From the NCBI GenBank assembly GCA_913060655.1, contig CAJXTG010000009.1, positions 1 through 51,070 on the forward strand: a stretch of DNA of 51,070 nt. The letters run 5' to 3'. A model generated the notes under the pieces. The model saw only the letters and a program-made list of their open reading frames with translations. It was not told the origin of the DNA and did no database searches. This document shows positions 18,788-38,678 of the stretch, in pieces. Source of the DNA: an uncultured Nitriliruptoraceae bacterium. Lineage in GTDB: Bacteria; Actinomycetota; Nitriliruptoria; Nitriliruptorales; Nitriliruptoraceae. Position numbers and translations under genes: made by a program. Position 1 is the stretch's first letter. The number at the start of each line of letters is the position of its first letter.

Positions 18788-19798
18788 TCAGCTCGTCAGC
18801 GTGACCTTGTCGAGGCCACGCGGCCGGTCAGGGTCCAGTCCGCGGGCCCGCGCGGCCCCGTGGGCGAAGGCCTGCAGGGCTGGCGCCGCGACGATCGGGG
18901 CGAGCCACTCCGGCGCCGACGGGACGAGCAGGTGCGCGTCCGCCGGGAACGAGGGGTCGTCGGTCAGCGCGACCACGTGCGCACCGCGGGCCCGGAGCTC
19001 CTCCGCGGCCGCGTGCAGGTCGGTGAACACCGCACCAGCGGTCGCGACGACGAGGACGAGCAGCCCCTCCTCCGCGGCGGCGATCGGACCGTGCCGCAGG
19101 TCGGCCGCCGACTGGGCCTGCGCGACGAGGTTGGTCAGCTCCTGCAGCTTCAGCGCCCACTCGTGCGCGGTCGCGAAGTGCATGCCGCGCCCGACGACCA
19201 TGCATCGGTCGCGGTCACCCACGACCGCACCGGCGTCCGCAGCAGCGTCGGTACGGGCCAGCGCGGCGCGTACGAGCGCCGGCAGCGCGGCGAGCTCGGT
19301 CGCGCCGTCCGAGGCGGCGGCGAGGCCCGCGACGGCCGCCAGCTGGGCCGTGTACGTCTTCGTCGCGGCGACCGCGAGCTCGGGACCGGCGGCGAGATCG
19401 ACGACCGCGTCGGCGACGTCCGCGAGCGGGGAGTCCGGCGCGTTCGTGATCGCGAGTGCCGGCCGCCCCTGACGGCGGGCGTCCTCCAGCACGGCGAGCA
19501 GGTCGGGGGAACGGCCCGACTGGGACACGCCGACGGCCAGGGTGCCGTCGAGCCGCGGGGCGACGCCGTAGCGGCTGTGCAGCGAGGGGATGGCGAGACC
19601 GACGGGGAGCCGCAGCCGCTGGCCCCAGACGTACTGCGCGTAGCGGAGCGCGTTGTCGCTGGTCCCCCGTCCGACGCCGAGCACCGGCCCCGCGTGTCCC
19701 CCGACGAGCGCCCGGGCCGCGTCGCCCGGTGCCATCAGCCGTGCGAGCAGCGCCTCGACGACGTCGGCCTGCTCATGGAGCTCCGCCCACATACTCAC
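18788..19798 (-). CDS. SIS-domain sugar-phosphate isomerase/deaminase, GlmS-isomerase/NagB-II-like
   Basis: A 336-residue protein of two sugar-isomerase (SIS) domains without the glutaminase domain of GlmS. Seen are GRGTSDNALRYAQY at about 42-55, GVSQSGRSPDL at about 90-100, ATKTYTAQ, GRGMHFATAHEWALKLQEL in domain 2, ADLRHGP at about 232-238, and a tail DRPRGLDKVTLTS. The tail matches the GlmS C-terminal pattern ending PRNLAKSVTV, including its lysine. The GlmS catalytic loop GELKHGP appears here as ADLRHGP, a Glu-to-Asp change. GlmS-like deaminases (NagB-II type) convert glucosamine-6-phosphate to fructose-6-phosphate and ammonia; that is the most likely role. The GTG start overlaps the ROK repressor stop (GTGA). 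Confidence 0.85.
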   Translation of the reverse strand: MSMWAELHEQADVVEALLARLMAPGDAARALVGGHAGPVLGVGRGTSDNALRYAQYVWGQRLRLPVGLAIPSLHSRYGVAPRLDGTLAVGVSQSGRSPDLLAVLEDARRQGRPALAITNAPDSPLADVADAVVDLAAGPELAVAATKTYTAQLAAVAGLAAASDGATELAALPALVRAALARTDAAADAGAVVGDRDRCMVVGRGMHFATAHEWALKLQELTNLVAQAQSAADLRHGPIAAAEEGLLVLVVATAGAVFTDLHAAAEELRARGAHVVALTDDPSFPADAHLLVPSAPEWLAPIVAAPALQAFAHGAARARGLDPDRPRGLDKVTLTS

Positions 19799-21057
19799 CG
19801 CTCCGCCCCCTCCGCGGTCGCGACGGTGCGGCCCATCGGATCCGCCTCGGCGAGCAGGCGGGCGCGCAGCGTGTCGAGGCCGGCGGCCAGCGCCCCCTCG
19901 TACGGGGCACGGACCCCCAGGGTGCTCGGAAGCAGCTCGGGCCCGCGGGGCAGCAGCCGTGAGGCGTAGCGGGCGACCGCGGCGGCGAGCCGCGCGTCGG
20001 AGCCGACGCGCCCACCGAGGACGACGAGCCGCGGGTCGAGCATCGCTGCTGCGGCGGCGACACCGAGTGCGAGCGTCCGTGCCTCCTCGTCGACGAGTCG
20101 CGCCGCGAGCGTGTCGCCGCCCGCGGCGGCGGTCAGGACGTCGGTCGCCGTCGCCTCCGCGCGCAGGATGGTCGCCTCACCGCGGGCGAGCGCCTCGTGG
20201 AGCCGGCGACTGAGCCCACCCCCTGCCGCCGCCGCCTCGAAGGCGCCGGCGCCGCGGTAGGTCGGGTCGTACGGGTTGGCACCGATGGGCAGCAGGGCCA
20301 GCTCACCGGCGGCACCGCTGTGACCACGGAACAGCTCCCCGTCGATGACGACGCCCATGCCGGCTCCGGACCCCACGGAGATGACGACGAAGTCGTCGAC
20401 GCCCTGCGCCGTGCCGACGCGCCGCTCGCCCAGCGCAGCGAGGTTGACGTCGTTCTCGACGACGACCTCCGTCCCGGTGCGCGCCGAGAGCGCGGCGCGA
20501 GGATGCATCCCGGTGAGCGCGGGGACGCTGGGAACGTCGGTGACGGTGTCGGTCGCGGCCCGCCACACGCCCGGTACGCCGAGGGAGACGATGCCGAGGG
20601 AGCGGGGATCGAGCTCGGCCGCGGCGAGCAGCTCCTCGCGGAGCCGTCCGAGCCGCGCGATCAGCCCTTCCGGCCGATCGTCGTCGAGCAGCACGGTCCG
20701 CTGTTCGAGCGTGCGTCCGCGGAGATCCGCGACCCCGGCCTGAACGGCCTCCCCGTCGAGCACGAGGGCCACGACGTGCCCGGCGGTCGGGACGAGGCCG
20801 TACAGGTGGGCGGGCCGACCGAGGCTGCCGGAGGCGACGCCGAGCTCGTCGACCAGGCCGAGACGCTCGAGGTCGGCGACGAGCGAGGACACGGTCGGGA
20901 GGGAGATGCCGGTGCGCTCGGCCAGGGCGGGCCGGGTCGACCCGCCCTCCTCGTCGAGCAGGACGTCGAGGACGGCCCGCAGGTTGAGCGAGCGCACCAG
21001 TCCGGGGCCGCTGCCGCGCGGTTCCGGATCGGGCCGGTCGTCGTGCGCTGCGGTCAC
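19795..21057 (-). CDS. ROK-family transcriptional regulator
   Basis: A 420-residue ROK (NagC/Mlc/XylR-like) regulator. An N-terminal winged helix-turn-helix (LAERTGISLPTVSSLVADLERLGLV, about residues 44-70) precedes a ROK sugar-kinase-like domain with VVENDVNLAALGERR, ISVGSGAGMGVVIDGELF and VVLGGRVGSD. The usual ROK zinc motif CxCGxxGC after the GHxGxxGE helix is absent: the segment after SGAAGELALLPIG has no cysteine. It is therefore a non-zinc member. GTG at 21057 follows AGGAAGGGG. It shares GTGA with the SIS gene and diverges from the kinase-transporter operon, which it probably represses by binding the 21153-21194 region. Confidence 0.92.
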   Translation of the reverse strand: MTAAHDDRPDPEPRGSGPGLVRSLNLRAVLDVLLDEEGGSTRPALAERTGISLPTVSSLVADLERLGLVDELGVASGSLGRPAHLYGLVPTAGHVVALVLDGEAVQAGVADLRGRTLEQRTVLLDDDRPEGLIARLGRLREELLAAAELDPRSLGIVSLGVPGVWRAATDTVTDVPSVPALTGMHPRAALSARTGTEVVVENDVNLAALGERRVGTAQGVDDFVVISVGSGAGMGVVIDGELFRGHSGAAGELALLPIGANPYDPTYRGAGAFEAAAAGGGLSRRLHEALARGEATILRAEATATDVLTAAAGGDTLAARLVDEEARTLALGVAAAAAMLDPRLVVLGGRVGSDARLAAAVARYASRLLPRGPELLPSTLGVRAPYEGALAAGLDTLRARLLAEADPMGRTVATAEGAER

Positions 21058-21152
21058 CGTGCCCCTTCCTTCGCGTCCGCCCGGCGGGTCCGCCGCGGGT
21101 CGGCGACCCGGCGGCCGGGTGCATCCGGCCGGATGGCACGACCCTAGCCGCC

Positions 21153-21194
21153 TTGACTTACTTCGGAACCTTTCATAATGTAGTCCGAACGGAC
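21153..21194 (+). promoter_or_regulatory. promoter and operator region between ROK regulator and ROK kinase
   Basis: TTGACT at 21153-21158 and TAATGT at 21176-21181 have 17-bp spacing; the alternative -10 CATAAT at 21174 has 15-bp spacing. TTCGGA (21162-21167) and TCCGAA (21184-21189) form an inverted repeat over the -10. GTCCG-AA-CGGAC (21183-21194) is a second, compact palindrome at the expected start of transcription. A repressor bound here would block the operon, and the divergent ROK regulator is the obvious candidate. Confidence 0.55.
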
Positions 21195-21228
21195 ACGGTC
21201 GCTCACCGGTCCGGTGGGAGAACGGGGG

Positions 21229-22104
21229 GTGACGGGCGTGCAGGTCCTCGGTATCGACGTGGGTGGCTCGGAGGTCAAGGGCGCCGTCGTCGACACGGGC
21301 ACCGGCACGCTCCGCACGCCGCCGGACCGGCATCCGACCCCCTCCCCCTCCGACCCCGACGCGCTGGCCGCGGTCATGCGCGCGATCGTCGACGGGCTCG
21401 CCTGGGCGGGGCCGATCGGCTGCGCCTTCCCCGCACCGATCGTCGACGGGACGGTCACCACCGCCGACAACATCGACGGGTCGTGGGTGGGACTCCGGGG
21501 CGGCGAGGTGCTCGCCGGCCACCTCGGCCACCCCGTCCACCTGCTCAACGACGGGGACGCCGCGGCCGTCGCGGAGAGCCGCTTCGGCGCCGCACGTGGG
21601 CACGGCACCGTGCTCGTGCTGACGTTCGGGACGGGTGTCGGCAGCGCGCTGCTCCGCGACGGGCGGCTCGTCCCCAACACCGAGCTCGGACATCTGCGCT
21701 TCGGTGACAGCGACCTGGAGACGTACGCCGCAGCCAGCGCGATCGCCCGCGACGGGCTCGATGACGACGCCTGGTCGGCACGGGCCAACGCGGTGATGCG
21801 TCACCTGTGCGACGTCCTCGCCGCCGACCGGATCGTCGTCGGCGGCGGCATCTCAGAACGTTTCGAACAGCTCCGGCTCGGCGAGGGCGTCCCCGCCCCC
21901 GTCGTGCCGGCCCGCCTCGGGAACGACGCGGGCATCGTCGGTGCGGCCGTGTCAGCCGCCTCCGGCGACACGTCGGCACGTCCGACGACGAACGGCGTGG
22001 GCGCGGCCCGCGGGGAGCAGGGGCTCCCCGACGGGCTGCTGCTCAGCACGACGTCACGCAGCGCCGCTGCGGACGGCAGGACCACGGAGGGAGCACACAG
22101 ATGA
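21229..22104 (+). CDS. ROK-family sugar kinase, polyphosphate-glucokinase-like
   Basis: A 291-residue ROK kinase. The ATP/phosphate loop is GIDVGGSEVKGAVVD near the N-terminus, the catalytic Asp lies in LLNDGDAAAVAE, and LTFGTGVGSALLRDGRLVPNTELGHL closely follows the pattern of actinobacterial polyphosphate/ATP glucokinases. It should phosphorylate an imported hexose or hexosamine at C6, using ATP or polyphosphate. The zinc motif CxCGxxGC is absent, as in that subgroup. GTG at 21229 is chosen because GGGAG lies 8 bases upstream. The last 45 or so residues are a low-complexity tail. The stop overlaps the binding-protein gene as ATGA, tying the kinase to the transporter's substrate. Confidence 0.86.
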   Translation: MTGVQVLGIDVGGSEVKGAVVDTGTGTLRTPPDRHPTPSPSDPDALAAVMRAIVDGLAWAGPIGCAFPAPIVDGTVTTADNIDGSWVGLRGGEVLAGHLGHPVHLLNDGDAAAVAESRFGAARGHGTVLVLTFGTGVGSALLRDGRLVPNTELGHLRFGDSDLETYAAASAIARDGLDDDAWSARANAVMRHLCDVLAADRIVVGGGISERFEQLRLGEGVPAPVVPARLGNDAGIVGAAVSAASGDTSARPTTNGVGAARGEQGLPDGLLLSTTSRSAAADGRTTEGAHR

Positions 22105-23429
22105 GATCAGGGAACTTCCGACGGCGCGCGGTGCCACTCATCGCCGCCGTCGCCCTCGTCGCCGCGGCCTGCGGCGGCGCGGAGGACAGCACGACGGATG
22201 CCAACGACGAGACCGCCGCTCCGGCGCCGGCCCCGTCCGAGACGGTCGACGAGGAGGGCAACACCGAGCTCCACGTCTTCCACTTCAAGGTCAACATCCA
22301 GACGCAGTGGCAGAACCTGACCGACGAGTACTCGGCGGAGCAGGGTGACGTCACCTTCGTCAACGAGATCATCGGTGGTGGGAACGCCTGGCTGCCGATC
22401 CTGAAGTCCAAGTTCGCTGCGGACCGTGGCCCCGACATCTTCATCGTCGAGGGTCCCGCGCAGGCCGCGGAGTTCAGCGACTACCTGTCCGACCTCACCG
22501 GTGAGGCGTGGACCGAGAGCGTGTTCCCGTGGGCGATCGAGCCACTGACGCAGGACGGCCAGATCCTCGGGATGCCCGTGAACGTCGAGGGGTACGGCTA
22601 CATCTACAACAAGGCCATCTTCGACGACGCCGGTGTCACCGAGAAGCCGACCACGGTGTCCGAGCTGCGGGCAGCCGCCGAGCAGCTCGAGTCCGCCGGG
22701 TACGTGCCGTTCGGCACCGGCTACGGCGTGTGGTGGGTCAGCGGTCTGCACCTGATGAACATCGGGTTCGCCCGTCAGGAGGACCCGCAGGCGTTCCTCC
22801 AGCAGGCGCTCGCCCGCGAGGTCACCTTCGCGGACGACCCGGTGTTCCAGCAGCTCGGCGACCTCGTCCAGGTCACCCTGGACCACAGCGAGCCGGACCC
22901 GCTGACCACCGACGTCCCGGCGCAGAACCAGCTGTTCTTCGACGGCGAGGCCGCGATGATCCAGCAGGGCAACTGGCGCGAGATCCAGATCCTCGCCGCG
23001 GACCCCGAGGCCGACATCGGACTCGTGCCGATGTCGATCAACGACGACGCGACGGACGGTGACCGCATCGCGGTCGGTGTGCCGTTCTACTTCGTCGTGA
23101 ACTCGGAGTCCTCCGAGGCGGAGCAGGCCGAGGCGCGCGAGTTCCTCAACTGGCTCGTCACGTCGGAGACCGGCAAGCGCTACCTCGTCGAGGAGTTCGG
23201 CTTCATCCCGGCCTACGACGGCATCGAGGCGACCGGCCTCGGTGGGGTCAGCCAGGACATCCTGAGCTACTCGGCTGAGGGCAAGATCATCCCCTGGGTG
23301 TTCGGGTCGTTCCCGGACGGCTCGCCACAGGAGATGTCCGAGGCGTTCCAGCGCCATGTCGCCGGACAGGCGACGTGGGCGGAGACGCTCGCGGAGTTCG
23401 ACGCGATCTGGGACCGGCTCGCCGGCTGA
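22101..23429 (+). CDS. ABC sugar transporter substrate-binding lipoprotein (CUT1)
   Basis: A 442-residue extracytoplasmic binding protein. A basic N-region (RSGNFRRRA), a hydrophobic core and the lipobox LVAAAC give lipidation at Cys24. A Thr/Ala/Pro linker then leads to the mature domain, beginning NTELHVFHFKVN. Family-1 solute-binding features include MPVNVEGYGYIYNKAIFDDAG, VTLDHSEPDPLT and FFDGEAAMIQQGNW. CUT1 systems import oligosaccharides, glycosides or sugar derivatives. The specificity is unreadable; tryptophans and acidic residues around GYGVWWVSG would line the site. The ATG is preceded by GGAGGGAG and overlaps the kinase stop. Confidence 0.93.
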   Translation: MRSGNFRRRAVPLIAAVALVAAACGGAEDSTTDANDETAAPAPAPSETVDEEGNTELHVFHFKVNIQTQWQNLTDEYSAEQGDVTFVNEIIGGGNAWLPILKSKFAADRGPDIFIVEGPAQAAEFSDYLSDLTGEAWTESVFPWAIEPLTQDGQILGMPVNVEGYGYIYNKAIFDDAGVTEKPTTVSELRAAAEQLESAGYVPFGTGYGVWWVSGLHLMNIGFARQEDPQAFLQQALAREVTFADDPVFQQLGDLVQVTLDHSEPDPLTTDVPAQNQLFFDGEAAMIQQGNWREIQILAADPEADIGLVPMSINDDATDGDRIAVGVPFYFVVNSESSEAEQAEAREFLNWLVTSETGKRYLVEEFGFIPAYDGIEATGLGGVSQDILSYSAEGKIIPWVFGSFPDGSPQEMSEAFQRHVAGQATWAETLAEFDAIWDRLAG

Positions 23430-23434
23430 TCGTG

Positions 23435-23478
23435 GCTCCCGCCGCGGAGGGACCGGTCCTCCCCTCCGCGGCGGGAGC
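23435..23478 (+). terminator. 17-bp perfect hairpin between binding-protein and permease genes
   Basis: GCTCCCGCCGCGGAGGG and its exact complement flank a 10-base loop in the 98-bp gap between the lipoprotein and the first permease. It begins 5 bases after the stop codon. Such intercistronic hairpins usually protect the upstream message or partly end transcription so that the binding protein is made in excess over the membrane subunits. There is no T-run, so partial rather than full termination is likely. Confidence 0.6.
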
Positions 23479-23527
23479 ACCCCGCCCCGCCCTACCGTGA
23501 CCGCACGCCGACCGGAGGAGGCCGCGC

Positions 23528-24469
23528 ATGGCGCTCAAGGAGCTGCCACGTGCCGCTGCGAGCGCCGGCCGGACGACGGCGGGGCGCAGGAGCAGCAGGA
23601 CCGGGCGCACCGCCCGCCGGGACGACGCGATGTTCGTCGGACCGGCCGTCCTGCTCTTCGGCGGCATCCTCGGTGCCGGCTTCATCCTCGGCCTGTGGTA
23701 CTCCCTCGTCGAGTGGAACGGCGTCAACCGTGAGATGACCTTCATCGGGCTCGAGAACTACGCGACCCTGCTCTCCGACGACCGCATGCGCGGCAGCGCC
23801 TGGTTCACCGCCCGGTTCGCGCTGGTCACCACCGTCCTCTCCAACCTGATGGGTCTGGGCCTTGCGCTCCTCGTGACCCAGCCGGCACCGTTCCAACGCC
23901 TCTACCGGGCGATGTTCTTCCTCCCGAACGTGATCGGCGGCATCCTCCTCGGCTTCATCTTCCGCTTCGTCTTCTCGACCGCCTTCGACAGCCTCGGTGA
24001 ACTGACCGGGGTCGGACTGTTCCAGCTCCCCTGGCTCGGGACGCCGGCGACCGGCTTCTGGGGCACCGTCATCGTCTTCATGTGGCGCAGCTCGGGCTAC
24101 CTCATGGCCATCTACGTCGCCGCGATCGTCAGCGTCGATGAGGACCTCTACGAGGCCGCACGGGTCGACGGCGCGAACTGGCTGCAGTCCACCCGTCGGA
24201 TCACCCTGCCGCTGATCATGCCGGCGGTGACCGTCGGCGTGTTCCTGATGCTGTCGATCTCCAGCAAGCTGTTCGACGTCATCTTCGCACTGACCAACGG
24301 CGGGCCGTACGGATCGACGGAGGCGTTCGCGCTCAACATCTACAACGAGGCGTTCATCTACAACAACCTCGGACTCGCCTCCGCCAAGGCCGTCGTGTTC
24401 TTCGTCGCCGTCGGCGTGCTCACGCTCGTCCAGGTCCGCTTCACGCAGCGGCGCGAGGTGGAGCGGTGA
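23528..24469 (+). CDS. ABC sugar transporter permease, MalF-like
   Basis: A 313-residue inner-membrane permease with six predicted helices (first one around FVGPAVLLFGGILGAGFILG) after a basic 33-residue N-terminus. The cytoplasmic EAA loop that docks on the ATPase is YEAARVDGANWLQ at about 212-224. It pairs with the next gene to form the CUT1 translocation channel. ATG follows CCGGAGGAGG. The adjacent 3' gene overlaps by 4 bp (GTGA). No ATPase gene is present in the cluster, so the importer must use a shared MsiK-type ATPase, as many actinobacterial CUT1 systems do. Confidence 0.94.
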   Translation: MALKELPRAAASAGRTTAGRRSSRTGRTARRDDAMFVGPAVLLFGGILGAGFILGLWYSLVEWNGVNREMTFIGLENYATLLSDDRMRGSAWFTARFALVTTVLSNLMGLGLALLVTQPAPFQRLYRAMFFLPNVIGGILLGFIFRFVFSTAFDSLGELTGVGLFQLPWLGTPATGFWGTVIVFMWRSSGYLMAIYVAAIVSVDEDLYEAARVDGANWLQSTRRITLPLIMPAVTVGVFLMLSISSKLFDVIFALTNGGPYGSTEAFALNIYNEAFIYNNLGLASAKAVVFFVAVGVLTLVQVRFTQRREVER

Positions 24470-25338
24470 CCGGCGCCACCCTCGCCCCGACCCCCCGGCT
24501 GTCGCGTCGGAACCGACGTCGGGCCGCCAGCATCGGTCTGAGCGCCGGCATCGCCGCACTCGCCATCTTCTGGATGTCCCCGATGTACCTCGTGTTCGTC
24601 AACTCCATGAAGGACTTCGGGGAGATCCTGCGCAACGCCGCCGCGCTGCCCGAGCGCTTCATGTCCGACAACTACGAGGTCGCCTGGGAGCTCGCCGACT
24701 TCGCCACGGCCCTGGTGAACTCCCTGTTCGTCACCGTGCTCGCCGTGGGGGGCCTCGTCATCATCGGGGCGATGGCCGCGTGGCGGATGGCCCGCCGCCC
24801 CCACCGCTGGCACAAGGTGCTGTTCAGCCTGTTCGTCGTGGCCATGGTCGTCCCGTTCCAGACCCTGATGATCCCGACCGTGCAGCTGTCCACCTGGCTG
24901 GGCGTGGTGAACACGCGCAGCGGGCTCGTCCTCCTCTACCTGAGCTTCGGCATGCCGCTGACCGTGTTCTTCCTCCACGGTTTCGTGCAGTCATCCGTCC
25001 CGCGCGAGATCGAGGAGGCCGCCCGCATCGACGGCGCATCCTCGTGGCAGACGTTCCGACTGGTCGTCCTCCCGCTGATGCGACCGATGATCGCGACGGT
25101 CTCCATCCTGCACGCCTTCTGGATCTGGAACGACTTCCTCCTCCCGCTGCTCGTCCTCTTCGACCCGGCACGCAGAACGATCCCGTTGGCCATCTTCTCC
25201 TTCTTCGGCGTCCACAGCGACCAGTGGGACCTCGCGACCGCAGCGCTCGTGATGGGCATGGTCCCCATCGTCGTCTTCTTCCTCGTCTTCCAGCGCTTCA
25301 TCATCCGCGGCGTCGCCGCCGGATCGCTCAAGGGCTGA
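24466..25338 (+). CDS. ABC sugar transporter permease, MalG-like
   Basis: A 290-residue permease with six predicted helices and the EAA loop EEAARIDGASSWQTF in the C-terminal half. The C-terminus VFQRFIIRGVAAGSLKG is the canonical MalG-type end that contacts the ATPase. It forms a heterodimer with the MalF-like protein. GTG start overlaps the upstream stop. It is followed after 29 bp by the dehydrogenase gene in the same direction, with no sign of a terminator between. Confidence 0.94.
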   Translation: MTGATLAPTPRLSRRNRRRAASIGLSAGIAALAIFWMSPMYLVFVNSMKDFGEILRNAAALPERFMSDNYEVAWELADFATALVNSLFVTVLAVGGLVIIGAMAAWRMARRPHRWHKVLFSLFVVAMVVPFQTLMIPTVQLSTWLGVVNTRSGLVLLYLSFGMPLTVFFLHGFVQSSVPREIEEAARIDGASSWQTFRLVVLPLMRPMIATVSILHAFWIWNDFLLPLLVLFDPARRTIPLAIFSFFGVHSDQWDLATAALVMGMVPIVVFFLVFQRFIIRGVAAGSLKG

Positions 25339-25367
25339 GGCCCGCACGACCACGCAGGAGTGGGTCC

Positions 25368-26612
25368 ATGGACGACATCCGTGTCGGCATCATCGGTCTC
25401 GGCACCCGCGGGACCCATGCGCTCGCGCGCAACATGGCCGAGACGTACCCGGAGCACCGGCTGCGCGTGACCGCCCTCCACGACCGCAACCCGGACCGCA
25501 CCCGCGAGGCCGCGCAGGACCTGGCCGCGCAGTATGCCGCGATCGGCGTCACCATCGACCCGACCCTGCACACCGACGGGCATGCGCTGATCGCCGACCC
25601 CGACGTCGACCTCGTCATGGTCGTCTCGATCACGGACACGCACCGCGAGTACGCGGTCCCTGCGCTCGAGTCCGGCAAACGCGTCTACTGCGACAAGCCG
25701 CTCGCGCACACCGTCGAGGACGCCGTCGCCATCGTCGAGGCGGAACGCCGGTCGGACAACCGCCTGATCATGGGCTTCACCCGTCGCTACGAGCAGGCCT
25801 GGCGGACCGCCGCGGACCTGCTCGCCGACGGCGCGATCGGGCGGCTGCAGCTCCTCCAGGTCCGCGACATGATCCCCTACCACCGCTACCTGACCGGCTG
25901 GTGGCGTCGGCGCGAATGGTCCGGTGGGGCGCTGAACGACAAGGGCAGCCACCTGTTCGACGTGTTCAACTGGCTCACGGGTGAGCGTGCGCTGCGCGTG
26001 TCGGCCGTCGGTGGGCGTCGAGCGCTCGACGAGCCGGCAGGACACGCCGACCGCTGCCACCGCTGCGAGCTGACCTGCCCCTACCGCCGGCGCGAGTTCG
26101 CCACCGGCGCGCCCGTCGCCGAGGACGTGTTCACCCACGCCGGCGCGTCGTGGCTCGCGGAGACCGACGAACGCTACGTCGACGACACCTGCGTGTACGC
26201 CCCGGGGACGGACCTCTGGCACGGCGGCTCGGTCCAGTTCACCTACCCCGACGGCCTGGTCGCCAGCTACGTCTACACGATCTTCGGTCAGGAGGCCGAC
26301 GATGAGGAGACCCTCGAGCTCGTCGGCTCCGAGGGGCGCATCGTGCTCACACGGGCGACCGGAGAGGTCCGGCTCATCGCCGAGCACGGCGCACGCCGGG
26401 AGGTGCTGGACCGTCGCGGCCCGCACTTCACCGACTCGCACTTCGGTGCGGACAAGGCGCTGATGGGTGACCTCCGGACCTTCGCCCTCGGCGGCGCACC
26501 GCCCGTCTCCGCCGACGACGGGCTCGAGGCGACCCGCATGGTCGTCGCGGCGCACGCGTCGATGGAGGCCGACGGGCGGACCGTCGAGATGAAGGAGATC
26601 CCCGATGTCTGA
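25368..26612 (+). CDS. Gfo/Idh/MocA-family NAD(P)-dependent oxidoreductase
   Basis: A 414-residue dehydrogenase. The Rossmann fold has GIIGLGTRG at residues 7-15, the cofactor/catalytic lysine motif is CDKPLAHT (Lys110), and the conserved histidine is in DKGSHLFD (His195). Family enzymes oxidise a sugar, inositol or glycoside hydroxyl, often at C3, or reduce the ketone. A cysteine cluster at 230, 233 and 237 (CHRCELTCPY) inserted in the substrate domain may bind a metal; it occurs in one branch of the family. ATG is preceded by GCAGGAG. The stop overlaps the PHP gene by 8 bp. The substrate is unknown but presumably derives from the imported compound. Confidence 0.92.
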   Translation: MDDIRVGIIGLGTRGTHALARNMAETYPEHRLRVTALHDRNPDRTREAAQDLAAQYAAIGVTIDPTLHTDGHALIADPDVDLVMVVSITDTHREYAVPALESGKRVYCDKPLAHTVEDAVAIVEAERRSDNRLIMGFTRRYEQAWRTAADLLADGAIGRLQLLQVRDMIPYHRYLTGWWRRREWSGGALNDKGSHLFDVFNWLTGERALRVSAVGGRRALDEPAGHADRCHRCELTCPYRRREFATGAPVAEDVFTHAGASWLAETDERYVDDTCVYAPGTDLWHGGSVQFTYPDGLVASYVYTIFGQEADDEETLELVGSEGRIVLTRATGEVRLIAEHGARREVLDRRGPHFTDSHFGADKALMGDLRTFALGGAPPVSADDGLEATRMVVAAHASMEADGRTVEMKEIPDV

Positions 26613-28143
26613 CCCGTCCGCGGTCCCCGACGGCCTCGACGTCTTCTACGGTGACCTCCACAGTCACTGCGACGTCGGATACGGCCACGGCACCCTCGAC
26701 GAGGCGTACCGCAACGCACGACTGTCGCTCGACTTCGTCGCGATCACGCCGCATGCGCACTGGCACGACCTGCCGTCGGAGGACGACGAACGTCTCGGCT
26801 ACCTGCGGGACTACCACCTGCGCGGCTTCGCGCGCACCCGGGACCAGTGGCCACGCGTGCTCGAGCTCGCCGCGGCCAACCACGAGCCCGGCCGTTTCGT
26901 CACCTTCGTCGCCTTCGAGTGGCACTCGATGGCCTACGGCGACCACAACGTCTACTTCCGGGACGGTGACGGTGAGGTGCTGCGCGCCCCGGACCTCCCT
27001 GCGCTGCGCGAGGCGATCCGCCAGGTGCGCGCCCAAGGCGGGGACGCGATCGCCATCCCACATCACATCGGCTACCGCCCGCCCGGCCGCGGCATCGAGT
27101 GGTCCGCCTACACCGAGGAGGTCTCCCCCGTCGTCGAAGCCCTGTCGATGCACGGGGCGGCCGAGTCCGGCGAGGGCCCCTTCCCCTACCTGCACACGAT
27201 GGGGCCGCGGGACGCCGCGAGCACGTACCAGCACGGACTGGCGCTCGGACACCGGGTCGGCATCATCGGCTCCTCCGACCACCACAGCGGCCACCCGGGC
27301 AGCTACGGCCACGGTCGGCTGGCCGTGTGGGCGCAGGACCTGACCCGCGAGGGCATCTGGGAGGCGATCCGTGCGCGGCGGACCTACGCGCTCTCGGGCG
27401 GCGACCAGCGGGTGGCGCTCCGCGTCGCCGACCACTTCCTCGGCGACGTGGCCCCCGCCACCCCCGTCCGCGAGGCGCTCGTGGAGGTCATCGGGTCCGG
27501 CCCGGTCGACAGCGTCGAGCTGCTGCACCGCAACCGCGTGGTCGCCCGCGCGGACGCCGGCGTCGGGCGGCTCGCCCCGCAGCTGGAGACCCCGGCCCGG
27601 ACGCACCTCGAGGTCGGCTGGGCGGAGGTCGGCGTGCCCGTCTCCTGGGACGTGGAGGTCCGCGTCGAGGGCGGGCGGCTGCTCGCCGTGGACCCGCGGT
27701 TCCGCGGGCTGCACGTCGTCGCCCCGCAGGACATGGACGAGCGCGACTACGCGGTCAGCGCCTGGTCCCGCACGCCCGAGGGAGGGGTCCGCTTCACGAC
27801 CCGGACCGAGGGCAACGTGAACTCAGCCACTCCCGGCATGCAGGGGCTCGCGCTCGACGTCGACGGCGACGAGCGGACCGTGCTCGTCGCGACGTTCAAC
27901 GGTCACGAGGAGCGCGTCCCGCTCCGCGACCTCGTCGAAGGACCGCGCACCGGTCGGCTCGGCGGATTCCTCGCGCCCGCATGGGCGTTCAGCCGTGCGG
28001 TCGGGCTGCGTGAGCGCACCGTCCGGATGGAGTTCGAGCACCGACCGGAGCGGCCCTCCGGCGAGCGTGACTGGTACACGGTGCGGGTCCGACAGGTCGA
28101 CGGGCAGGCCGCGTGGACGAGCCCCGTCTGGGTCGAGGCCTGA
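26605..28143 (+). CDS. PHP-domain metallohydrolase (CehA/McbA- or DUF3604-like)
   Basis: A 512-residue protein whose first ~240 residues are a polymerase-and-histidinol-phosphatase (PHP) metal hydrolase. Ligands seen are GDLHSH (Asp17, His19, His21), ITPHAHWH (His50, His52, His54), FEWHS (Glu105, His107), IPHH (His153, His154) and SSDHHSGH (Asp225, His226, His227). The remaining ~270 residues look beta-rich and are not recognised. The PHP fold hydrolyses phosphoesters or, in the CehA/McbA branch, carbamate or amide bonds. There is no signal peptide, so it acts inside the cell. Last gene of the ABC-dehydrogenase operon; its job is probably release of a substituent from the imported sugar derivative. 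Confidence 0.87.
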   Translation: MSDPSAVPDGLDVFYGDLHSHCDVGYGHGTLDEAYRNARLSLDFVAITPHAHWHDLPSEDDERLGYLRDYHLRGFARTRDQWPRVLELAAANHEPGRFVTFVAFEWHSMAYGDHNVYFRDGDGEVLRAPDLPALREAIRQVRAQGGDAIAIPHHIGYRPPGRGIEWSAYTEEVSPVVEALSMHGAAESGEGPFPYLHTMGPRDAASTYQHGLALGHRVGIIGSSDHHSGHPGSYGHGRLAVWAQDLTREGIWEAIRARRTYALSGGDQRVALRVADHFLGDVAPATPVREALVEVIGSGPVDSVELLHRNRVVARADAGVGRLAPQLETPARTHLEVGWAEVGVPVSWDVEVRVEGGRLLAVDPRFRGLHVVAPQDMDERDYAVSAWSRTPEGGVRFTTRTEGNVNSATPGMQGLALDVDGDERTVLVATFNGHEERVPLRDLVEGPRTGRLGGFLAPAWAFSRAVGLRERTVRMEFEHRPERPSGERDWYTVRVRQVDGQAAWTSPVWVEA

Positions 28144-28164
28144 CGGGCCGACGCGCCGCAGGGG

Positions 28165-28207
28165 ACGTCGCCGTCAGGCGGCCGCATCCTCGCGGACGTC
28201 GCGGTAG
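28165..28207. repeat. left copy of 43-bp direct repeat flanking the BspA/two-component islet
   Basis: Matches 32540-32582 at 40 of 43 positions, with the first 28 identical. It lies 21 bases after the PHP gene stop. Read on the minus strand it encodes the EDAAA-stop end of the NYN-LOTUS protein, though no such gene precedes it here. The copies are exactly 4,375 bp apart and bound a stretch of lower G+C. This is the layout of an attachment-site duplication, but no recombinase gene lies between. Confidence 0.75.
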
Positions 28208-28262
28208 GGGCGCTCAAGGACCCCGATGTCGATCCGCGGACCAGACCCAAGAATGTTGCCCC

Positions 28263-28276
28263 GTGTGCGCGCACAC
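28263..28276. repeat. 14-bp perfect palindrome GTGTGCGCGCACAC
   Basis: A perfect palindrome flanked by C-runs, 46 bases past the 3' end of the BspA-like gene and inside the islet's left end. It could be a binding site for a dimeric protein or part of a weak terminator for the minus-strand BspA gene. Apart from this and the direct repeat, 28144-28321 holds nothing I can support. Confidence 0.5.
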
Positions 28277-28321
28277 CCCACTTCCACGGATGCCCGTTCA
28301 CGGTCGGCCGGAGCTTCGTCC

Positions 28322-29821
28322 TCAGTCCCTGCGGAACGCCGACACCCTGGCCGCGACTGAGGCTGCACGCAGTCCGCCGACGGTCAGGACGACGAGAACG
28401 ACCCACCGCCACACGGGAGGCGGGCCCTCACCCGAGGGGACCGACGTCGGCACCGGACCACCCACGACACCCAGCGGCATCGGCGCCGTCCACTCGACGA
28501 GCTCCACCCGGAGCTCCTCACCCACAGCAGCCGCCGGCACGACGAACGAGAACGTCCCCGTCCCGTCAGGACCGATGCGCACCCCGGAAGATACGAACAC
28601 CGGGTTGTATGCGGCACGCCACAGGATGTCGATCCCCGGATCAGCTTCCGACACCGTGCAGGTCACCGACCCGCCCGCCGTAAGCACGGCCGGCACACAC
28701 GCCAGGCTCGGGCCTGACACGGGAGACGGCGCGGCGGCCGGCTCCGCACACGCACCCGCCACCGTGCCCCCATCGGCATCACCGGAGATCGTCCAACCCC
28801 GGTCATCGACCAGCACGCCACGCGCCGCATCCGACGCCGCCGACCGCACCAGCCCATTCGCCCCGAGCGACCGGCCCGAGACCGCCGGATCCAACCCCGC
28901 CCAACCGATCAACGTCGCGTCATAGCACGACACCGACAACCCAGATCCGACGAGCATGGACGACAGATTGACGCTGCTGTTCAGCGTCCACCCACCAATG
29001 TCACGATCGAACGCGAGTGCATTCAGAAAGAGCTCGCGCATGTCGGTCACGCTTGAAGTGTTCCACCCACCGATGTCCTGATTGAACGCCACCGCCTCGC
29101 GGAACATCCGGTACATGAGGCCAACGCTTGACGTGTCCCAGGCCCCGATGTCCTGGTTGAACGCTGCAGCACCTTGAAACGCGAAGCGCATGTCGTAGAC
29201 CTTCGAGGTGTCCCAACCACCGATGTCCTGGTTGAACGCGACTGCCCCTGTGAACATCTCGTTGATAGAAGTGACGTTTGACACGTTCCAGGCGCCGATG
29301 TCCTGGTTGAAGGACACGGCTCCGCTGAACATGGCCCTCAAGTAGGTCACGCTCGACGTATCCCAACCGCCGATGTCCTGATTGAACTCCGACGCGCCCT
29401 GCAACATCTTCCACATGTTCGTCACGTTCGACGTGTCCCAACCGCCGATGTCCTGATTGAACTCCGACGCGCCGTCGAACATCGACACCATCGTGGTCAC
29501 GTTCGACGTGTCCCAACTGCTGATGTCCGCGTTGAACGCAGCTTCGTTGAGAAACAGCGCATCCATATCGGTGATGCCTGAGGTGCAGACGGTCGACGCG
29601 TTCAACGTCGTGATGGCACTCTTGTCGGAGACAGCCGTGTAGGTCACCCCATCGATCTCAGCCGTCGCCCCAGCCTTCGCGCCATCGCACACCAACGTCT
29701 CGCCGACGAACGCGAACGTCCCATTCGCCGAGGCGTCGTCGACGGCCATGACGAGATGGAGGATGCCGAGAGCGGTGACGACGAGTCCGCTGACGACCCA
29801 GGTGCGTGGCGATGTCAGCAT
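28322..29821 (-). CDS. BspA-family leucine-rich-repeat (DUF285) surface protein
   Basis: A 499-residue exported protein. A signal peptide/anchor ([20 protein letters not shown]...) precedes a short domain. Eight 25-residue units follow, most beginning [16 protein letters not shown], the DUF285/BspA repeat. Then come a [11 protein letters not shown] segment often found after such repeats, a beta-sandwich-like region (about 370-445), and a C-terminal hydrophobic helix with basic end AFRRD that would hold it in the membrane. BspA repeats mediate adhesion or ligand binding at the cell surface. The ATG at 29821 follows GAGGGG; GTG 29833 is an alternative. Lower G+C than neighbours and rarity of the family in actinobacteria suggest acquisition by transfer. 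Confidence 0.9.
28937..29536 (-). repeat. eight tandem 75-bp repeats encoding BspA units
   Basis: Imperfect tandem units of 75 bp (25 codons), the core reading CCGATGTCCTGGTTGAACG on the plus strand at a strict 75-bp period. Units 1 and 8 are the most diverged. Nucleotide conservation of the FNQDIG core between units suggests expansion by recombination or slippage. Copy number may vary among strains. It is coding sequence, not a CRISPR array. Confidence 0.88.
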
Positions 29822-29975
29822 TGTTCCCCTCACGACTTCACGTCATTACGGCTGACGAGGAGGAGACCAGTCCGAGACACCGCCCACCAGGCTCTTGGCA
29901 CGAATCACGACGAGGTGTCGCACTACCGCGACACTTCACGCCAACTCGACGCTGCACCAGCGACCAATCGAGCCC

Positions 29976-31742
29976 TCAGGCCCCGCCACCCGACATGCGA
30001 CCGGCGGCGAGCACCACCTCAAGACGCGTCCCGCCCGCCGGGCGCTGGATACGTGACCACGCCCCGGGGGCGACCGCATCGAGATGCGCAGAACCGATCC
30101 CCGCAGCGCCAGTCCCAGGTCCCACACCATCATCCTCGACCTCGACTCGGAGTCCCTCGCCGCGGCGACGAACGTCGACGACGCGGACAACCACCTGCCG
30201 GGCCGTGCCGTGCCGCCGTGCGTTCGTGAGCGCCTCCGAGACGATCCCGACGATGAGATCGTCGAACCGTCGCCCGAGCGGAGCCGCGACATCCAGCTCC
30301 AGCTGCACATCGAGGAGGCCGGCCCATCGTGCACCGAGCTCACCCAGGCGTTCCGCGAGGGGTGACGGCACGTCGCCCGGCCGAGCGCTCATCGCACACT
30401 CGATACGGGCAGCGACCTGCTTCAGCTCGACGCCGATCGCGTGTTCGTCGTGACCAAGACGGTCGATGCGCGCAGCGGCCGCGATCAGTTCGCCCTGAAG
30501 GTCGCCGTGCAACCGATCCGCGACGTCACGGGCCGCCGCGGCATCGAGATGGCTACGTCGCAGCTGCCCGTACCAGTCCGGCCCGAGCATCGCGACGAGC
30601 TGCGCGCGGACCGCGTCCCGGTCGTGCACGACGGTCGCCGCGATGCTCGAAGCGAGAACGATCGGAACGATCCAGGCAACGACGAGCCCGACGAGCCCAG
30701 CGGTCGTGAGGACGAACTCCGGTACCAGCAGACCGCGGACGAGGGTCGCGCTGGCCGCCGCAGCGATGAGGACCAGCGACAGATGCGCGGTACCCGACAC
30801 GGTGCTCTCGACGCTGGGGCGTGATGCCCGGGCGAGGGCGAGCAGCGTCGCCAGTGTGCCGGCCGCGACGAGGCCGGTCACCACCGCACGCAACGGCGTG
30901 ACGCGGTTGAGCGCGAAGAGCGTGATGACCAGGCCGTGCACGAGCATCGGGACGAGCACCGGGTAGGCGGGTCGCCGCAGCATCGCACGGACGAGCCCGC
31001 GGAACGTCAGGTCGCTCGAGGGCACCATGGCGCCGGACCACAGGCGATGCGTGAGCGGGCGCAGGTCCTCCTCCACCGCAGACGTCAGCAGCCGCGCCGC
31101 TTCCGAGGCCGGGACCCGCTGTATCGCGCCGCGCAACTCACCGAGGACGAGCGCAGCCTCCTCCCGGGCAGCGGCACCCTCCTCGGTGGTTCGCCCGTCC
31201 GCGGCGATCGAGCCGTGCTGCATCGGAGCAGCGGACGACGACACGGGGTCGATCAGGCCAGCGAACGTCTCCGCGACCAGCAGCCGGTGCTCCATCCGGT
31301 GACGGGCGAGGGTCGCGCGGATGAGGACGACCACCGGAACCATCGCCATCCCGACCACCGCGCCCTGCAGCAGACGACCAGCGTTCGAACCAAACCCCGT
31401 CGAGGTGAGGCCCAGGACGGCCCCCATCCCAGTGGTACCGAGCACCTTGACGCCACCGAGGAGCGCCCCAGTGGCGAGGGTGACGAGGATCGGGAGGGGC
31501 CTGCGACCTCGCCGCCGACGAGTGGCACGGACAAGAGCCGCGGCGATGAGCACACACGGCAGGAACGCGACGAGGTTGGCCACCGTCCAGCCGGCGACAC
31601 TCGCTGCATTCGGCTCCGCGAGGTCGGCGACCGAGGCGAGGGTCGTCGGGATGACGATGGTGAGCAGTGCCGGAGCATCGAGGAACCACTCACCACCGAG
31701 ATCCTGACGGATCCGAGCGATGGAGCCCGGCGAGGGTCTCAC
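29976..31742 (-). CDS. multi-pass membrane sensor histidine kinase
   Basis: A 588-residue kinase. About ten hydrophobic segments occupy residues 25-370, broken by a cytoplasmic stretch near 140-240. The dimerisation/phosphoacceptor helix is DRLHGDLQGEL with His412. The ATPase domain has N-box SEALTNARRHG (about 502-512), G1 EDDGVGPG and a C-terminal GIGSAHLDAV. The LHGDLQ form is a variant of the HDxxxQ acceptor of NarL-type kinases. It senses an unknown membrane or external signal and should phosphorylate the adjacent response regulator, with which it shares GTGA. The BspA-like gene follows in the same direction after 154 bp, a plausible target or partner. Confidence 0.9.
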   Translation of the reverse strand: MRPSPGSIARIRQDLGGEWFLDAPALLTIVIPTTLASVADLAEPNAASVAGWTVANLVAFLPCVLIAAALVRATRRRRGRRPLPILVTLATGALLGGVKVLGTTGMGAVLGLTSTGFGSNAGRLLQGAVVGMAMVPVVVLIRATLARHRMEHRLLVAETFAGLIDPVSSSAAPMQHGSIAADGRTTEEGAAAREEAALVLGELRGAIQRVPASEAARLLTSAVEEDLRPLTHRLWSGAMVPSSDLTFRGLVRAMLRRPAYPVLVPMLVHGLVITLFALNRVTPLRAVVTGLVAAGTLATLLALARASRPSVESTVSGTAHLSLVLIAAAASATLVRGLLVPEFVLTTAGLVGLVVAWIVPIVLASSIAATVVHDRDAVRAQLVAMLGPDWYGQLRRSHLDAAAARDVADRLHGDLQGELIAAAARIDRLGHDEHAIGVELKQVAARIECAMSARPGDVPSPLAERLGELGARWAGLLDVQLELDVAAPLGRRFDDLIVGIVSEALTNARRHGTARQVVVRVVDVRRRGEGLRVEVEDDGVGPGTGAAGIGSAHLDAVAPGAWSRIQRPAGGTRLEVVLAAGRMSGGGA

Positions 31743-32458
31743 GATGGCGCAGTTCCGTCCGCCTCCGCCGGCGGCCCGTCGCTGTCGAGGGGACCATGAC
31801 CGCCGAGACCTCGGAAGTAGACGCGAGCCAGATGGACCCGCTGGTTGCGGGCGGCGTCGGCGGAGAGGCCGAGCACGCGCCCCATCCGCTGGACCGTCTT
31901 CTCCACCGTCCGCTCCGAGATCGAACGACGAGCCGCGATCTCGGCGTTGCTCAGCCCTTCCGCGACCAGGCGCAGCGTCGCGATCTGGGCATCGGTGAGC
32001 GCTCCCAGTCCCTGCCCACCGGCGCTGCGCGAGCGTGTCCAGCGTGCAGCATCACCACGCGCTCCCACTCCGTCCTCCGCGACCTCAGCCAGGACCTCAC
32101 GGACGATGCCAAGAAGCATCTCGACCGACGTCACGGCCGACTTCGGGAGGTAGCGGGCACGTGCCGGCAGCTCCGCGATGCCCTCGCCGGCCAGCCGCGG
32201 GTCCAGGAGGCTCGTGAGCATGATCAGGCCGACGTCCGGCTGGCGATGGCGCAGCTCCTGCGCGAGGTCGAGCCCGGTCGGCCCGGCACCGAGGTGCACG
32301 TCGAGGATCGCCACGACGATACGGCGCTCTGCGACGACCGCGAACGCCTCATCCGCACGGCCGACCGCGACGACCTCGAGTCCACCATCGGACAGAGTCG
32401 ACTGCAGCATCAGACGCGTCAGGGGGTCGTCCTCGACGACGAGCGTGGTGATGGCCAT
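31739..32458 (-). CDS. response regulator, receiver plus LuxR-type HTH
   Basis: A 239-residue regulator. The receiver domain has the acidic pair VVEDD (about 8-11), phosphoacceptor Asp53 in AILDVHLG, and Lys106 in YLPKSAV. A variable linker leads to a LuxR/NarL helix-turn-helix at about 154-195 (LTDAQIATLRLVAEGLSNAEIA, then SERTVEKTVQRM). ATG at 32458 is chosen because the receiver begins directly there; no strong ribosome site precedes it. CATACT lies 5 bases upstream, so a leaderless transcript is possible. It is the first gene of the islet, starting 82 bases from the right direct repeat, and is coupled to the kinase by GTGA overlap. Confidence 0.9.
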   Translation of the reverse strand: MAITTLVVEDDPLTRLMLQSTLSDGGLEVVAVGRADEAFAVVAERRIVVAILDVHLGAGPTGLDLAQELRHRQPDVGLIMLTSLLDPRLAGEGIAELPARARYLPKSAVTSVEMLLGIVREVLAEVAEDGVGARGDAARWTRSRSAGGQGLGALTDAQIATLRLVAEGLSNAEIAARRSISERTVEKTVQRMGRVLGLSADAARNQRVHLARVYFRGLGGHGPLDSDGPPAEADGTAPS

Positions 32459-32539
32459 GCGGCAGTATGGCCGGCGTGCGCCCAAGGCGTGCCGAGTTGA
32501 GGCGGACCGCACGAGGAACTGTCGCGCCACCACGACGGA

Positions 32540-32582
32540 ACGTCGCCGTCAGGCGGCCGCATCCTCGGGGACGTAGAGGTAG
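32540..32582. repeat. right copy of 43-bp direct repeat, within the 3' end of the NYN-LOTUS gene
   Basis: This copy contains the last codons and TGA of the NYN-LOTUS gene (stop at 32549-32551). It equals 28165-28207 at 40 of 43 positions. Recombination between the copies would remove 4,375 bp and leave the NYN gene intact, ending about 30 bp from the convergent PHP gene. Confidence 0.75.
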
Positions 32583-33685
32583 TACTCCTCGTCGTCCTCC
32601 TCCCAGTCCATCTGCAGCACGCCACGGGCGACGGCGGCCTTGCAGAACTGGAGGAAGCCCGAGTAGCCGAAGTCCTTCTCGCTGAAGCCCTCCTGGCGCT
32701 TGCGGACCTGGTCCTTCAGGCCCGACAGCGGCGGGTCCCCACCGAGCTCGTCCATGAGCTCCGCGACGGTGCGGCGCAGCAGCGCGAACGCCTCGTCGAC
32801 GTCGGAGGACTTGGTCGCGAAGTCGACCTGCGGGTCGCCCTGCGCGCTGCCCTCGGTGAGCACCAGCACCTTGTGGGTCTCGAGGTGCCGGAGCATCTCG
32901 CGGAAGCCGCGGAAGCCGTAGTCCTGCTCGGCGAACGTCGGATCCTTACGCAGCAGCGCGCGCTTCAGGTTGCTCGACAGCACGACCCCGTCGGTGGACG
33001 AGCCCTGCAGGCCGGAGAGGGTGCGGGTCACCAGCCGCTCGAGCTTGCGCAGCTCCGACTCGGACGACGGCCCCGGTCCGGTCGCGACCTCACCCGCGGC
33101 GCCGCCGTCGGCCTTCCCCCCGCGTCGGGACCCGGCGGTCGACTTCGCCCGCCCCTTGCGGCCCCCCGACCCGCCGTCGCCGGAGCTGCGGCCGTCCAGC
33201 CGCGGGACCCCGTCGAGCCGGTCGTAGAACAGGAACTCGTCGCACGAGCTCGGCAGCATCGCCGACGTCGAGCCCTTCACCCCCACGCCGATGACCCGCT
33301 TGTTGAGCTCGCGCAGCTTGCCGACGAGCGGCGTGAAGTCGCTGTCGCCCGACACGATGACGAAGGTGGACACGAAGTCGCGGGTGAGCGCGAGCTCCAT
33401 GGCGTCGACCGCCATCTGGATGTCGGCCGCGTTCTTGCGCACGCTGTCGGACCGCTGCGGGATCTCGATCAGCTCGACGTTCGCGTCGACCATCCCCCGA
33501 CGGTCGTCGCGGAACAGGTTCCAGTCGGCGTAGGCGCGGCGGGCGATCAGCCGACCCCGCTCGGCGAGCGCGTCGGTGAGCGGCTTCGGGTCGAAGCGCA
33601 GCCCGACGCTGCGTGCACCGATCGCGACGTTCTCGTGGTCGATGTAGACCGCGAGCCGTTCCTCGTGCTGGTCAGGAGAGCTCAT
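32549..33685 (-). CDS. NYN-domain (LabA/DUF88) putative RNase with two LOTUS/OST-HTH domains
   Basis: A 378-residue protein. The N-terminal NYN domain (PIN-like nuclease fold) has acidic residues in YIDHEN (Asp16), ADIQMAVD (Asp88, Asp94) and SGDSDFTPL (Asp114, Asp116). A Gly/Ser/Arg-rich linker (about 160-205) leads to two OST-HTH/LOTUS RNA-binding modules, recognisable by AEQDYGFRGFREMLRHLE and SEKDFGYSGFLQFCKAA. Such proteins are predicted RNA-processing nucleases. ATG at 33685 overlaps the end of the phosphotransferase gene by 14 bp, so they are co-transcribed. Its 3' end is the duplicated islet boundary. All acidic positions expected for metal binding are present. Confidence 0.92.
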   Translation of the reverse strand: MSSPDQHEERLAVYIDHENVAIGARSVGLRFDPKPLTDALAERGRLIARRAYADWNLFRDDRRGMVDANVELIEIPQRSDSVRKNAADIQMAVDAMELALTRDFVSTFVIVSGDSDFTPLVGKLRELNKRVIGVGVKGSTSAMLPSSCDEFLFYDRLDGVPRLDGRSSGDGGSGGRKGRAKSTAGSRRGGKADGGAAGEVATGPGPSSESELRKLERLVTRTLSGLQGSSTDGVVLSSNLKRALLRKDPTFAEQDYGFRGFREMLRHLETHKVLVLTEGSAQGDPQVDFATKSSDVDEAFALLRRTVAELMDELGGDPPLSGLKDQVRKRQEGFSEKDFGYSGFLQFCKAAVARGVLQMDWEEDDEEYYLYVPEDAAA

Positions 33686-37822: not shown

Positions 37823-37867
37823 CCCTCGTGCGGACCGGGCGGCGCTCGGTACGCTCGACCACGTAGG

Positions 37868-37967
37868 ACCCCACCCGGGGAGCTCGGGACAGCCGGGCTG
37901 AGAGGGCGACCGGACGCGTCGCCGACCCGCGGAACCTGAGCTGGGTAATGCCAGCGGAGGGAGGTGC
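37868..37967 (+). promoter_or_regulatory. TPP riboswitch (THI element)
   Basis: The conserved thiamine-pyrophosphate aptamer blocks occur in order: GGGGAGC near 37877, GGGCTGAGAGGG at 37895-37906, ACCC at 37925, GAACCTGA at 37932-37939, and CTGGGTAATGCCAGCG at 37941-37956, then GGAGGGAGG. CACC (37872-37875) can pair with GGTG (37963-37966) to close stem P1. The ribosome site AGGGAGG lies in that 3' strand, 9 bases before the ATG, so bound TPP probably blocks translation initiation. It controls the TPK-thiBPQ operon. Confidence 0.95.
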
Positions 37968-37973
37968 GTACCG

Positions 37974-38678
37974 ATGCTGCCGTCGTTCCCCGATGTCGTC
38001 GTGCTCGCCGGCGGCGCACCGATGCCCGCCGACGGTGACGCGGCGATCGCCGCCGCGCTCGACGGGGCCGCGCTGACCGTCGCCGCCGACGGCGGCATCG
38101 CCCATGCGCACCGGCTCGACCGTGACGTCCACGTGCTCGTCGGCGACCTCGACTCGGTGACGGACGCCGCCCTCGCCCGTGCCCGGACGGCCGGGACGCG
38201 CGTCATCCGCCACCCCGCCGACAAGGACGCGACCGACCTCGAGCTGGCCCTCGCCCTCGTCGCCGACGCCGCCGGCACCACCGTCGACGGCGACGACGCT
38301 CGGCGCGTGCCCGCGGAGCCCGACGTGTGGGTCGTCGGCGGCGCCGGCGGCCGGACCGACCATCTCGTCGGCCACCTGCTGCTGCTCACCGCCCCCCGCT
38401 TCGCCGGCCTCCGCCTGCATTGCCGGTGGGGTGCGGCGACGCTCGACGTGGTCCGCGGCGGGGCGACGGTGCACGGCCGGGCCGGCGACACCGTCTCCCT
38501 GTTCGCCCTCCACGGCCCCGCCGACGGGGTGACCACCACCGGCCTGCGCTTCCCGCTCACCGGTGCCCGGCTCGCGGCCGGCACGACCCTCGGCCTGAGC
38601 AACCGGATGCTGGCCGACACGGCCACCGTCGCGGTCGCCGACGGCGTCGTCGCCGTCGTCCGCCCCGGTGACCCCTGA
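37974..38678 (+). CDS. thiamine pyrophosphokinase (thiamine diphosphokinase)
   Basis: A 234-residue enzyme transferring pyrophosphate from ATP to thiamine, giving TPP. Motifs: VVVLAGG at the N-terminus, TVAADGGIAHAH, VGDLDSVT, HPADKDATDLELAL and GGAGGRTDHLVGHLL, then a C-terminal beta-barrel half (GDTVSLFALHG, GLSNRM) that binds thiamine. ATG is directly under the TPP riboswitch. Placement with the thiamine importer makes this a salvage operon: uptake of thiamine, then activation. The lower conservation of the C-terminal part is normal. The length fits the bacterial family (about 210-240). Confidence 0.94.
   Translation: MLPSFPDVVVLAGGAPMPADGDAAIAAALDGAALTVAADGGIAHAHRLDRDVHVLVGDLDSVTDAALARARTAGTRVIRHPADKDATDLELALALVADAAGTTVDGDDARRVPAEPDVWVVGGAGGRTDHLVGHLLLLTAPRFAGLRLHCRWGAATLDVVRGGATVHGRAGDTVSLFALHGPADGVTTTGLRFPLTGARLAAGTTLGLSNRMLADTATVAVADGVVAVVRPGDP

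Follow-up and report, generated by a model that had tools for sequence, protein, structure and literature searches.

Background

An integrated element that has lost its integration and transfer genes and retained attL and attR is known as a CIME, or cis-mobilizable element (PMC5704250). Hitcher genetic elements, another class of dependent DNA, include phage satellites such as PICMIs and tycheposons (PMC11389934). Here we consider an islet of about 4.4 kb in the window, by which we mean the whole 51,070-nucleotide stretch of DNA that was analysed. It comes from an uncultured Nitriliruptoraceae bacterium known as a MAG in 82 contigs. We argue that the islet very probably arrived through site-specific recombination into the 3' end of a NYN-LOTUS gene and is now a CIME-like derivative, a reading drawn from sequence comparison. 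The islet encodes no integration enzyme and therefore resembles a stripped-down passenger or a remnant of mobile elements. The comparison covers three genomes of the same genus (G001 to G003) and about thirty of the same family, the Nitriliruptoraceae.

Boundaries of the islet

The islet is bounded by a direct repeat. When the window is compared with itself, positions 28165-28207 and 32540-32582 are identical at 40 of 43 positions, 28 nt of them contiguous, just as the preliminary description had it. The repeat can be extended to 28162-28207 and 32537-32582, where 42 of 46 positions are identical; the copies differ at some positions and are not identical over their full length. The 28-nt core is the longest exact repeat of the window, excepting the BspA gene's own 75-bp tandem array, and the longest exact repeat in 100 windows simulated with a Markov-1 model is 23. 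No third copy of comparable quality was found in the whole 1.67-Mb assembly, and the surroundings of clpP and PEPC in the window contain no additional att copy. The start-to-start distance of the two copies is 4375 bp. The features at the boundaries are:

28162-28207, minus strand: copy of the NYN 3' end on the left (distal) side, a putative att site and probably the gene's original end in a displaced position (42/46 against the right copy, 28 nt identical)
32537-32582, minus strand: copy on the right (proximal) side, a putative att site that includes the NYN-LOTUS stop and the codons just before it (repeat comparison)
32549-33685, minus strand: NYN-LOTUS gene, the insertion target, 378 aa (PF01936 E=4e-32, PF12872 E=5e-6)
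26605-28143, plus strand: DUF3604 / CehA-McbA-type metallohydrolase (PHP), flank outside the islet beyond the left repeat (PF12228; NF038032 just under cut-off)

The right copy includes the ten codons with which the NYN-LOTUS gene ends, and its stop (at 32549-32551). The left copy adjoins the PHP gene and has no NYN gene attached. This is the layout originally claimed for the two copies. The stop coordinates also agree with the claim that, once the islet and one copy are removed, some 30 bp would separate the PHP stop (28143) from the NYN stop.

Cargo genes and composition

Three genes lie between the copies, all in the orientation of NYN:

28322-29833, minus strand: BspA/DUF285 (PARCEL-repeat) surface protein, 503 aa, 75-bp repeat period (PF03382 E=5e-89; TIGR02167; repeat family D1)
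29976-31742, minus strand: membrane sensor histidine kinase (PF02518 E=4e-5, a weak HATPase_c match under the Pfam cut-off)
31739-32458, minus strand: response regulator with a LuxR-type HTH (PF00072, PF00196)

The regulator start was set at the ATG at 32458; the longest ORF reaches 32533. The BspA protein has an apparent signal peptide and a C-terminal membrane segment. We infer that the cargo is an exported surface protein of the PARCEL/BspA type, its gene probably regulated by the adjacent kinase and regulator pair. Other surface proteins in this genus also have the C-terminal tail domain of BspA, and in G003 the BspA match covers this domain only. Homologues of the kinase occur in G002 at 62% and 57% identity, and that genome has a regulator homologue, 74% identical, that adjoins a kinase homologue. 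The nearest regulator and kinase (74%, 62%) lie together on its contig C4 and a second pair lies on C1. Neither G001 nor G003 was found to have the kinase, so the regulator-kinase module is accessory in the genus.

The G+C content is 68.2% in the islet and 64.3% in the BspA gene against 73.6% in the window, which agrees with an earlier impression of lower G+C mainly in BspA. The kinase and regulator are near 71%. This can be refined with the codon-bias check that had been proposed: GC3 is 0.81-0.82 in all three cargo genes vs 0.93-0.98 in the neighbouring genes measured. Since GC3 is as low in the kinase and regulator as in BspA, the whole islet is compositionally distinct.

Two outside sources for the cargo were considered and rejected. 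Phage relatives of BspA match its repeat part, with none covering 80% of the protein. The regulator has plasmid relatives at about 30-34% identity, which are generic regulators. No parent element with the same cargo and an integrase was found. Rfam has no match inside the islet. Elsewhere in the window there is a TPP riboswitch at 37866-37979 (RF00059, 63.6 bits), just before a gene for a likely thiamine pyrophosphokinase and transporter genes.

The NYN-clpP site across relatives

The usual order in the family is NYN facing clpP. The gap between them is 52-184 bp in G005, G010, G017, G018, G023, G026 and G030, 767 bp in the same-genus G003 and 1.1 kb in G007. Empty sites were counted in G003 and in all the genomes of the 52-184 bp range. 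Since empty sites exist, the case that the preliminary description had named as counting against an insertion, with the islet accompanying every NYN-LOTUS gene, does not hold. In the window the usual neighbour is far away:

15453-16031, plus strand: clpP, the NYN neighbour at the empty site of relatives, here 16.5 kb off (synteny with relatives)

The order across these 16.5 kb is clpP, PEP carboxylase (PEPC), a sugar-uptake cluster ending in the PHP gene, the left repeat, the islet and NYN. The clpP-PEPC order is the same in the window and G002. A search that had no positive control failed to detect the PHP gene in G001-G003 and G015. Because relatives have NYN facing clpP and these four have no detected PHP gene, the 12 kb past the left repeat is itself variable. 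On the same two observations we reject PHP-NYN as the ancestral empty state. The convergent pair would instead be the state just before the window insertion. The idea that deletion restores a PHP-NYN pair therefore holds for the spacing, but not as the original state of the lineage. A search of relatives for an empty site likewise had a divided outcome: empty NYN-clpP sites are common, but no allele of this species with PHP beside NYN and a single repeat copy was found.

Some related observations can be made on this region. The stretch from PEPC to the left repeat (window 18788-28143) holds SIS-domain, ROK, sugar ABC transporter, GFO/IDH/MocA and DUF3604 genes. It may be a separate insertion, because the DUF3604 gene is the one not found in the four genomes above. 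Unrelated genes lie between NYN and clpP with no detectable repeat in G004, G006, G025, G029 and G034. The noncoding sequence after NYN (L034:269-453, L035:10785-10985) is 94% identical between G001 and G002, and the NYN gene is 87% identical. Across the family the NYN protein is conserved up to the repeat start, around YYLYV, and divergent beyond. This is as expected if elements bring their own tail, but ordinary C-terminal drift would look similar.

Elements with an integrase

G033 has a 17.7-kb element at the NYN end with a tyrosine integrase and a MobF/TrwC relaxase. The integrase gene, whose 413-aa product has Phage_integrase, SAM-like and arm-binding domains, terminates some 60 bp from the NYN stop and the relaxase is next. 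The distal copy of the NYN end is 17.7 kb away and has 33 identical nt. Inside each NYN-end repeat there are paired arm-type repeats with 11-bp spacing; the pair that follows the gene reads GTGACAACGGATTGACAACG and the one preceding the distal copy reads GTGACAACGCCGTGACAACG. In three further genomes (G022, G027 and G021) this integrase, or what remains of it, lies 62-82 bp from the NYN stop, and repeat pairs occur there at an equal offset. Integrases related to it adjoin tRNA-Val, tRNA-Gln and tRNA-Leu genes in G012, G009 and G011, respectively, again with repeat pairs between. Judging from these cases, an integrase family that inserts at tRNA genes appears to use the NYN end as a site in a protein gene as well. 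No viral contigs with the NYN end motif were found, and a single stretch matching the integrase over 17 residues in viral contigs was set aside.

Islets without an integrase

Two relatives have islets at the NYN end that carry no integrase. The one in G015 is 2.9 kb long and has an oxidoreductase gene. Its gene-end repeat is 25 nt with one mismatch followed by a diverged tail, and it has G033-type arms at both ends. The one in G002 is 2.3 kb long and has an RCC1-type surface gene split into several frames, which reflects either a pseudogene or sequencing indels. Beyond it come the repeated NYN end, then the flanking sequence a second time in diverged form, and one more surface gene. This looks like a tandem arrangement, seen in G002 only, and there is no further att copy at the contig end.

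In the window, G033, G015 and G002, four genomes whose insertions have four different contents, the gene-end repeats share their starting codons, around YYLYV. A search for the same repeat and cargo beyond other NYN-LOTUS genes, as the preliminary description had suggested, thus recovers the repeated gene end in three genomes, but not the cargo. Its view of the gene end as an attachment site gains from the G033 element, the integrase or remnants in three more genomes, the G015 and G002 islets and the empty sites. At the level of the family (Nitriliruptoraceae) these comparisons strongly support the NYN-LOTUS 3' end as an attachment site.

G002 has similar islets at tRNA genes. The cleanest integrase-less islet seen is at tRNA-Thr (L230:5830-8043). 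It is 2.1 kb long, repeats 49 identical nt of the tRNA end, has GGGAGCCAA pairs at both ends and has one recognised gene, an LRR/BspA surface protein. It has no integrase, and there is no non-Xer tyrosine recombinase in the G002 assembly. The tRNA-Arg region (L224:5380-13786) spans 8.3 kb with a kinase, a regulator, FG-GAP surface proteins and a lipoprotein, and no integrase. It has several partial copies of the tRNA 3' end, some beyond the 8.3 kb, and by this layout looks like an accretion array. The surface proteins of these tRNA islets have the C-terminal tail domain in common with the window BspA. A leader of about 105 bp, 86-90% identical, which may be a promoter, an operator or an element end, is common to the G002 NYN islet and both tRNA regions:

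L035:10877-10990; L224:12174-12280; L230:7693-7797: copies of the ~105-bp leader in the G002 islets at three sites

It must be noted that G002 also has surface-gene clusters on C1 and C4. The C1 cluster (L222:4827-19373), with a kinase and regulator, lies between apparent N- and C-terminal parts of comEC. Several of its surface genes have near-identical 3' ends, and no flanking gene-end repeat was found for it. A candidate islet in tRNA-Thr of the source genome was rejected; it is a partial copy at the very end of contig C60, in apparent overlap with C30.

Recombinases and arm sites

There is no integrase ORF inside the window islet, no relaxase or conjugation gene among its ORFs and no transposase, and the 43-46 bp repeat coincides with a gene end. 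A recombinase search of the whole assembly found XerC and XerD only and no resolvase, so what had been said of the islet, that no integrase lies inside, holds for the whole assembly apart from these two. Helper elements may be missing from the MAG and binned elsewhere. In a two-sided arm search, in which G033, G015 and the G002 tRNA-Thr islet each outscore every shuffle, the window islet yielded no arm-type sites. In the G002 NYN islet an arm pair is present on just one side, which is non-significant in the two-sided test. The target codons of the window islet are the same as those of G033, but it has no arm sites whereas G015 has them. The preliminary description left it as either mobilised in trans or a decayed remnant. 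We favour the remnant because the window islet has no recognisable arm sites of the kind seen in G033, G015 and the G002 tRNA-Thr islet.

Origin of the islet

We propose the following route. The docking site would be the NYN-LOTUS 3' end, used by a tyrosine-integrase family in the Nitriliruptoraceae. The integrase mechanism is read from the anatomy of G033 and would extend to the window islet. The incoming DNA would have brought its own version of the last NYN codons and stop, and so the NYN gene would have been kept intact. The original end would have been displaced and become the left repeat. To leave, the islet would need an integrase in trans or would first have to undergo accretion with a newly arrived element at this site. 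Since there is no integrase, relaxase or recognisable arm site, the islet would be a CIME-like derivative that needs outside help. It is now most likely fixed or slowly decaying, immobile unless helped, and is probably an old or immobile derivative.

One can imagine scenarios with no integration at all. Local duplication or illegitimate recombination could have copied the NYN end, with unrelated genes accumulating in a permissive NYN-clpP interval. This would account for the many genomes with NYN-clpP genes and no detectable repeat, such as the five listed above, and for a window without arm sites. However, the duplications start from the same codons in four genomes with four contents, one with an integrase, and the cargo composition is unlike the surroundings. 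We consider this origin quite improbable. It is highly improbable that contigs were simply mis-joined at the repeat. The MAG consists of 82 contigs, and a shared tRNA-Thr sequence contains the ends of at least one other contig pair, but a mis-join over a repeat presupposes that the repeat is already in two places. The same anatomy is also present in independently assembled genomes, and the flanking synteny (clpP-PEPC, APH-NYN) is common to relatives.

The islet could instead be an active hitch-hiker, a functional non-autonomous islet that still excises and moves when an element outside the assembly provides an integrase in trans. The tRNA-Thr islet of the same-genus G002 argues for this, being small, armed at both ends and without an integrase in an assembly that has no non-Xer tyrosine recombinase. 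The greater identity of the flank after NYN in G001 and G002, 94% vs 87% for the gene, also suggests recent exchange there. However, the window islet has no detectable arm sites and no relative was found with the same islet at another position, and we think it unlikely that it is still moving.

A wider scenario can be put forward tentatively, and we would not count on it. Genome-reduced Nitriliruptoraceae may have a family of minimal integrase-less islets, each with an attP-like end and a surface-protein gene, with or without a two-component system. These would spread among NYN-LOTUS, tRNA-Thr and tRNA-Arg 3' ends via integrases in trans, giving tandem arrays and a reshuffled cell surface, and the window islet would be a worn member. 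The evidence suggests that very small islets without an integrase carry surface-protein genes from place to place, and mobilisation in trans could be tested cleanly on the 2.1-kb tRNA-Thr islet of G002. If this holds, hitch-hiking DNA would partly drive the surface variation of these streamlined bacteria.

Comparison with known systems

Like the hitcher elements (PMC11389934), the window islet is small passenger DNA that would depend on a helper, but no helper or recombinase was identified for it. By Pfam its three genes show none of the features of a phage satellite (integrase, phage-derived or packaging genes). With no transposase, and with a repeat that is 43-46 bp long and falls on a gene end, the islet is also unlike an IS element or transposon. 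The cargo matches the DUF285 and PARCEL repeat models with a 75-bp period, as in the PARCEL/DUF285 surface proteins (PMC2996958). Relative to these, the window BspA differs in having the C-terminal tail domain of the RCC1, FG-GAP and LRR surface proteins of its genus, and in that its gene lies beside a two-component system. No paper in the literature searched links a NYN domain, an attachment site and an ICE, and no such site is described there. The literature searched also describes no element with this target, in line with the preliminary description, and the combination of site and cargo appears undescribed in it. The NYN-LOTUS 3' end seems to be a new integration site, but the kind of element is already known.

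The element of G033 is like an ICE or IME with a tyrosine integrase. It has the same target, a gene-end repeat, an integrase and a MobF relaxase, whereas the window islet has neither integrase nor relaxase. With G033 as the reference, the NYN-LOTUS 3' end joins the protein-coding integration sites of tyrosine integrases. The window islet is closest to a CIME. It has att-like direct repeats at a gene 3' end (46 bp, 28 nt identical) and no integration or transfer genes, only a regulator, a kinase and a surface protein. Its site is also used by an integrase/relaxase element, and a relative has a tandem arrangement there. It is unlike a CIME in that its att flanks have no arm sites of the integrase element known at the NYN site, and its gene target is a NYN-LOTUS gene. 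We therefore call the islet CIME-like, since it fits the definition on the features tested, save that its att flanks are unmatched to the known integrase element of the site.
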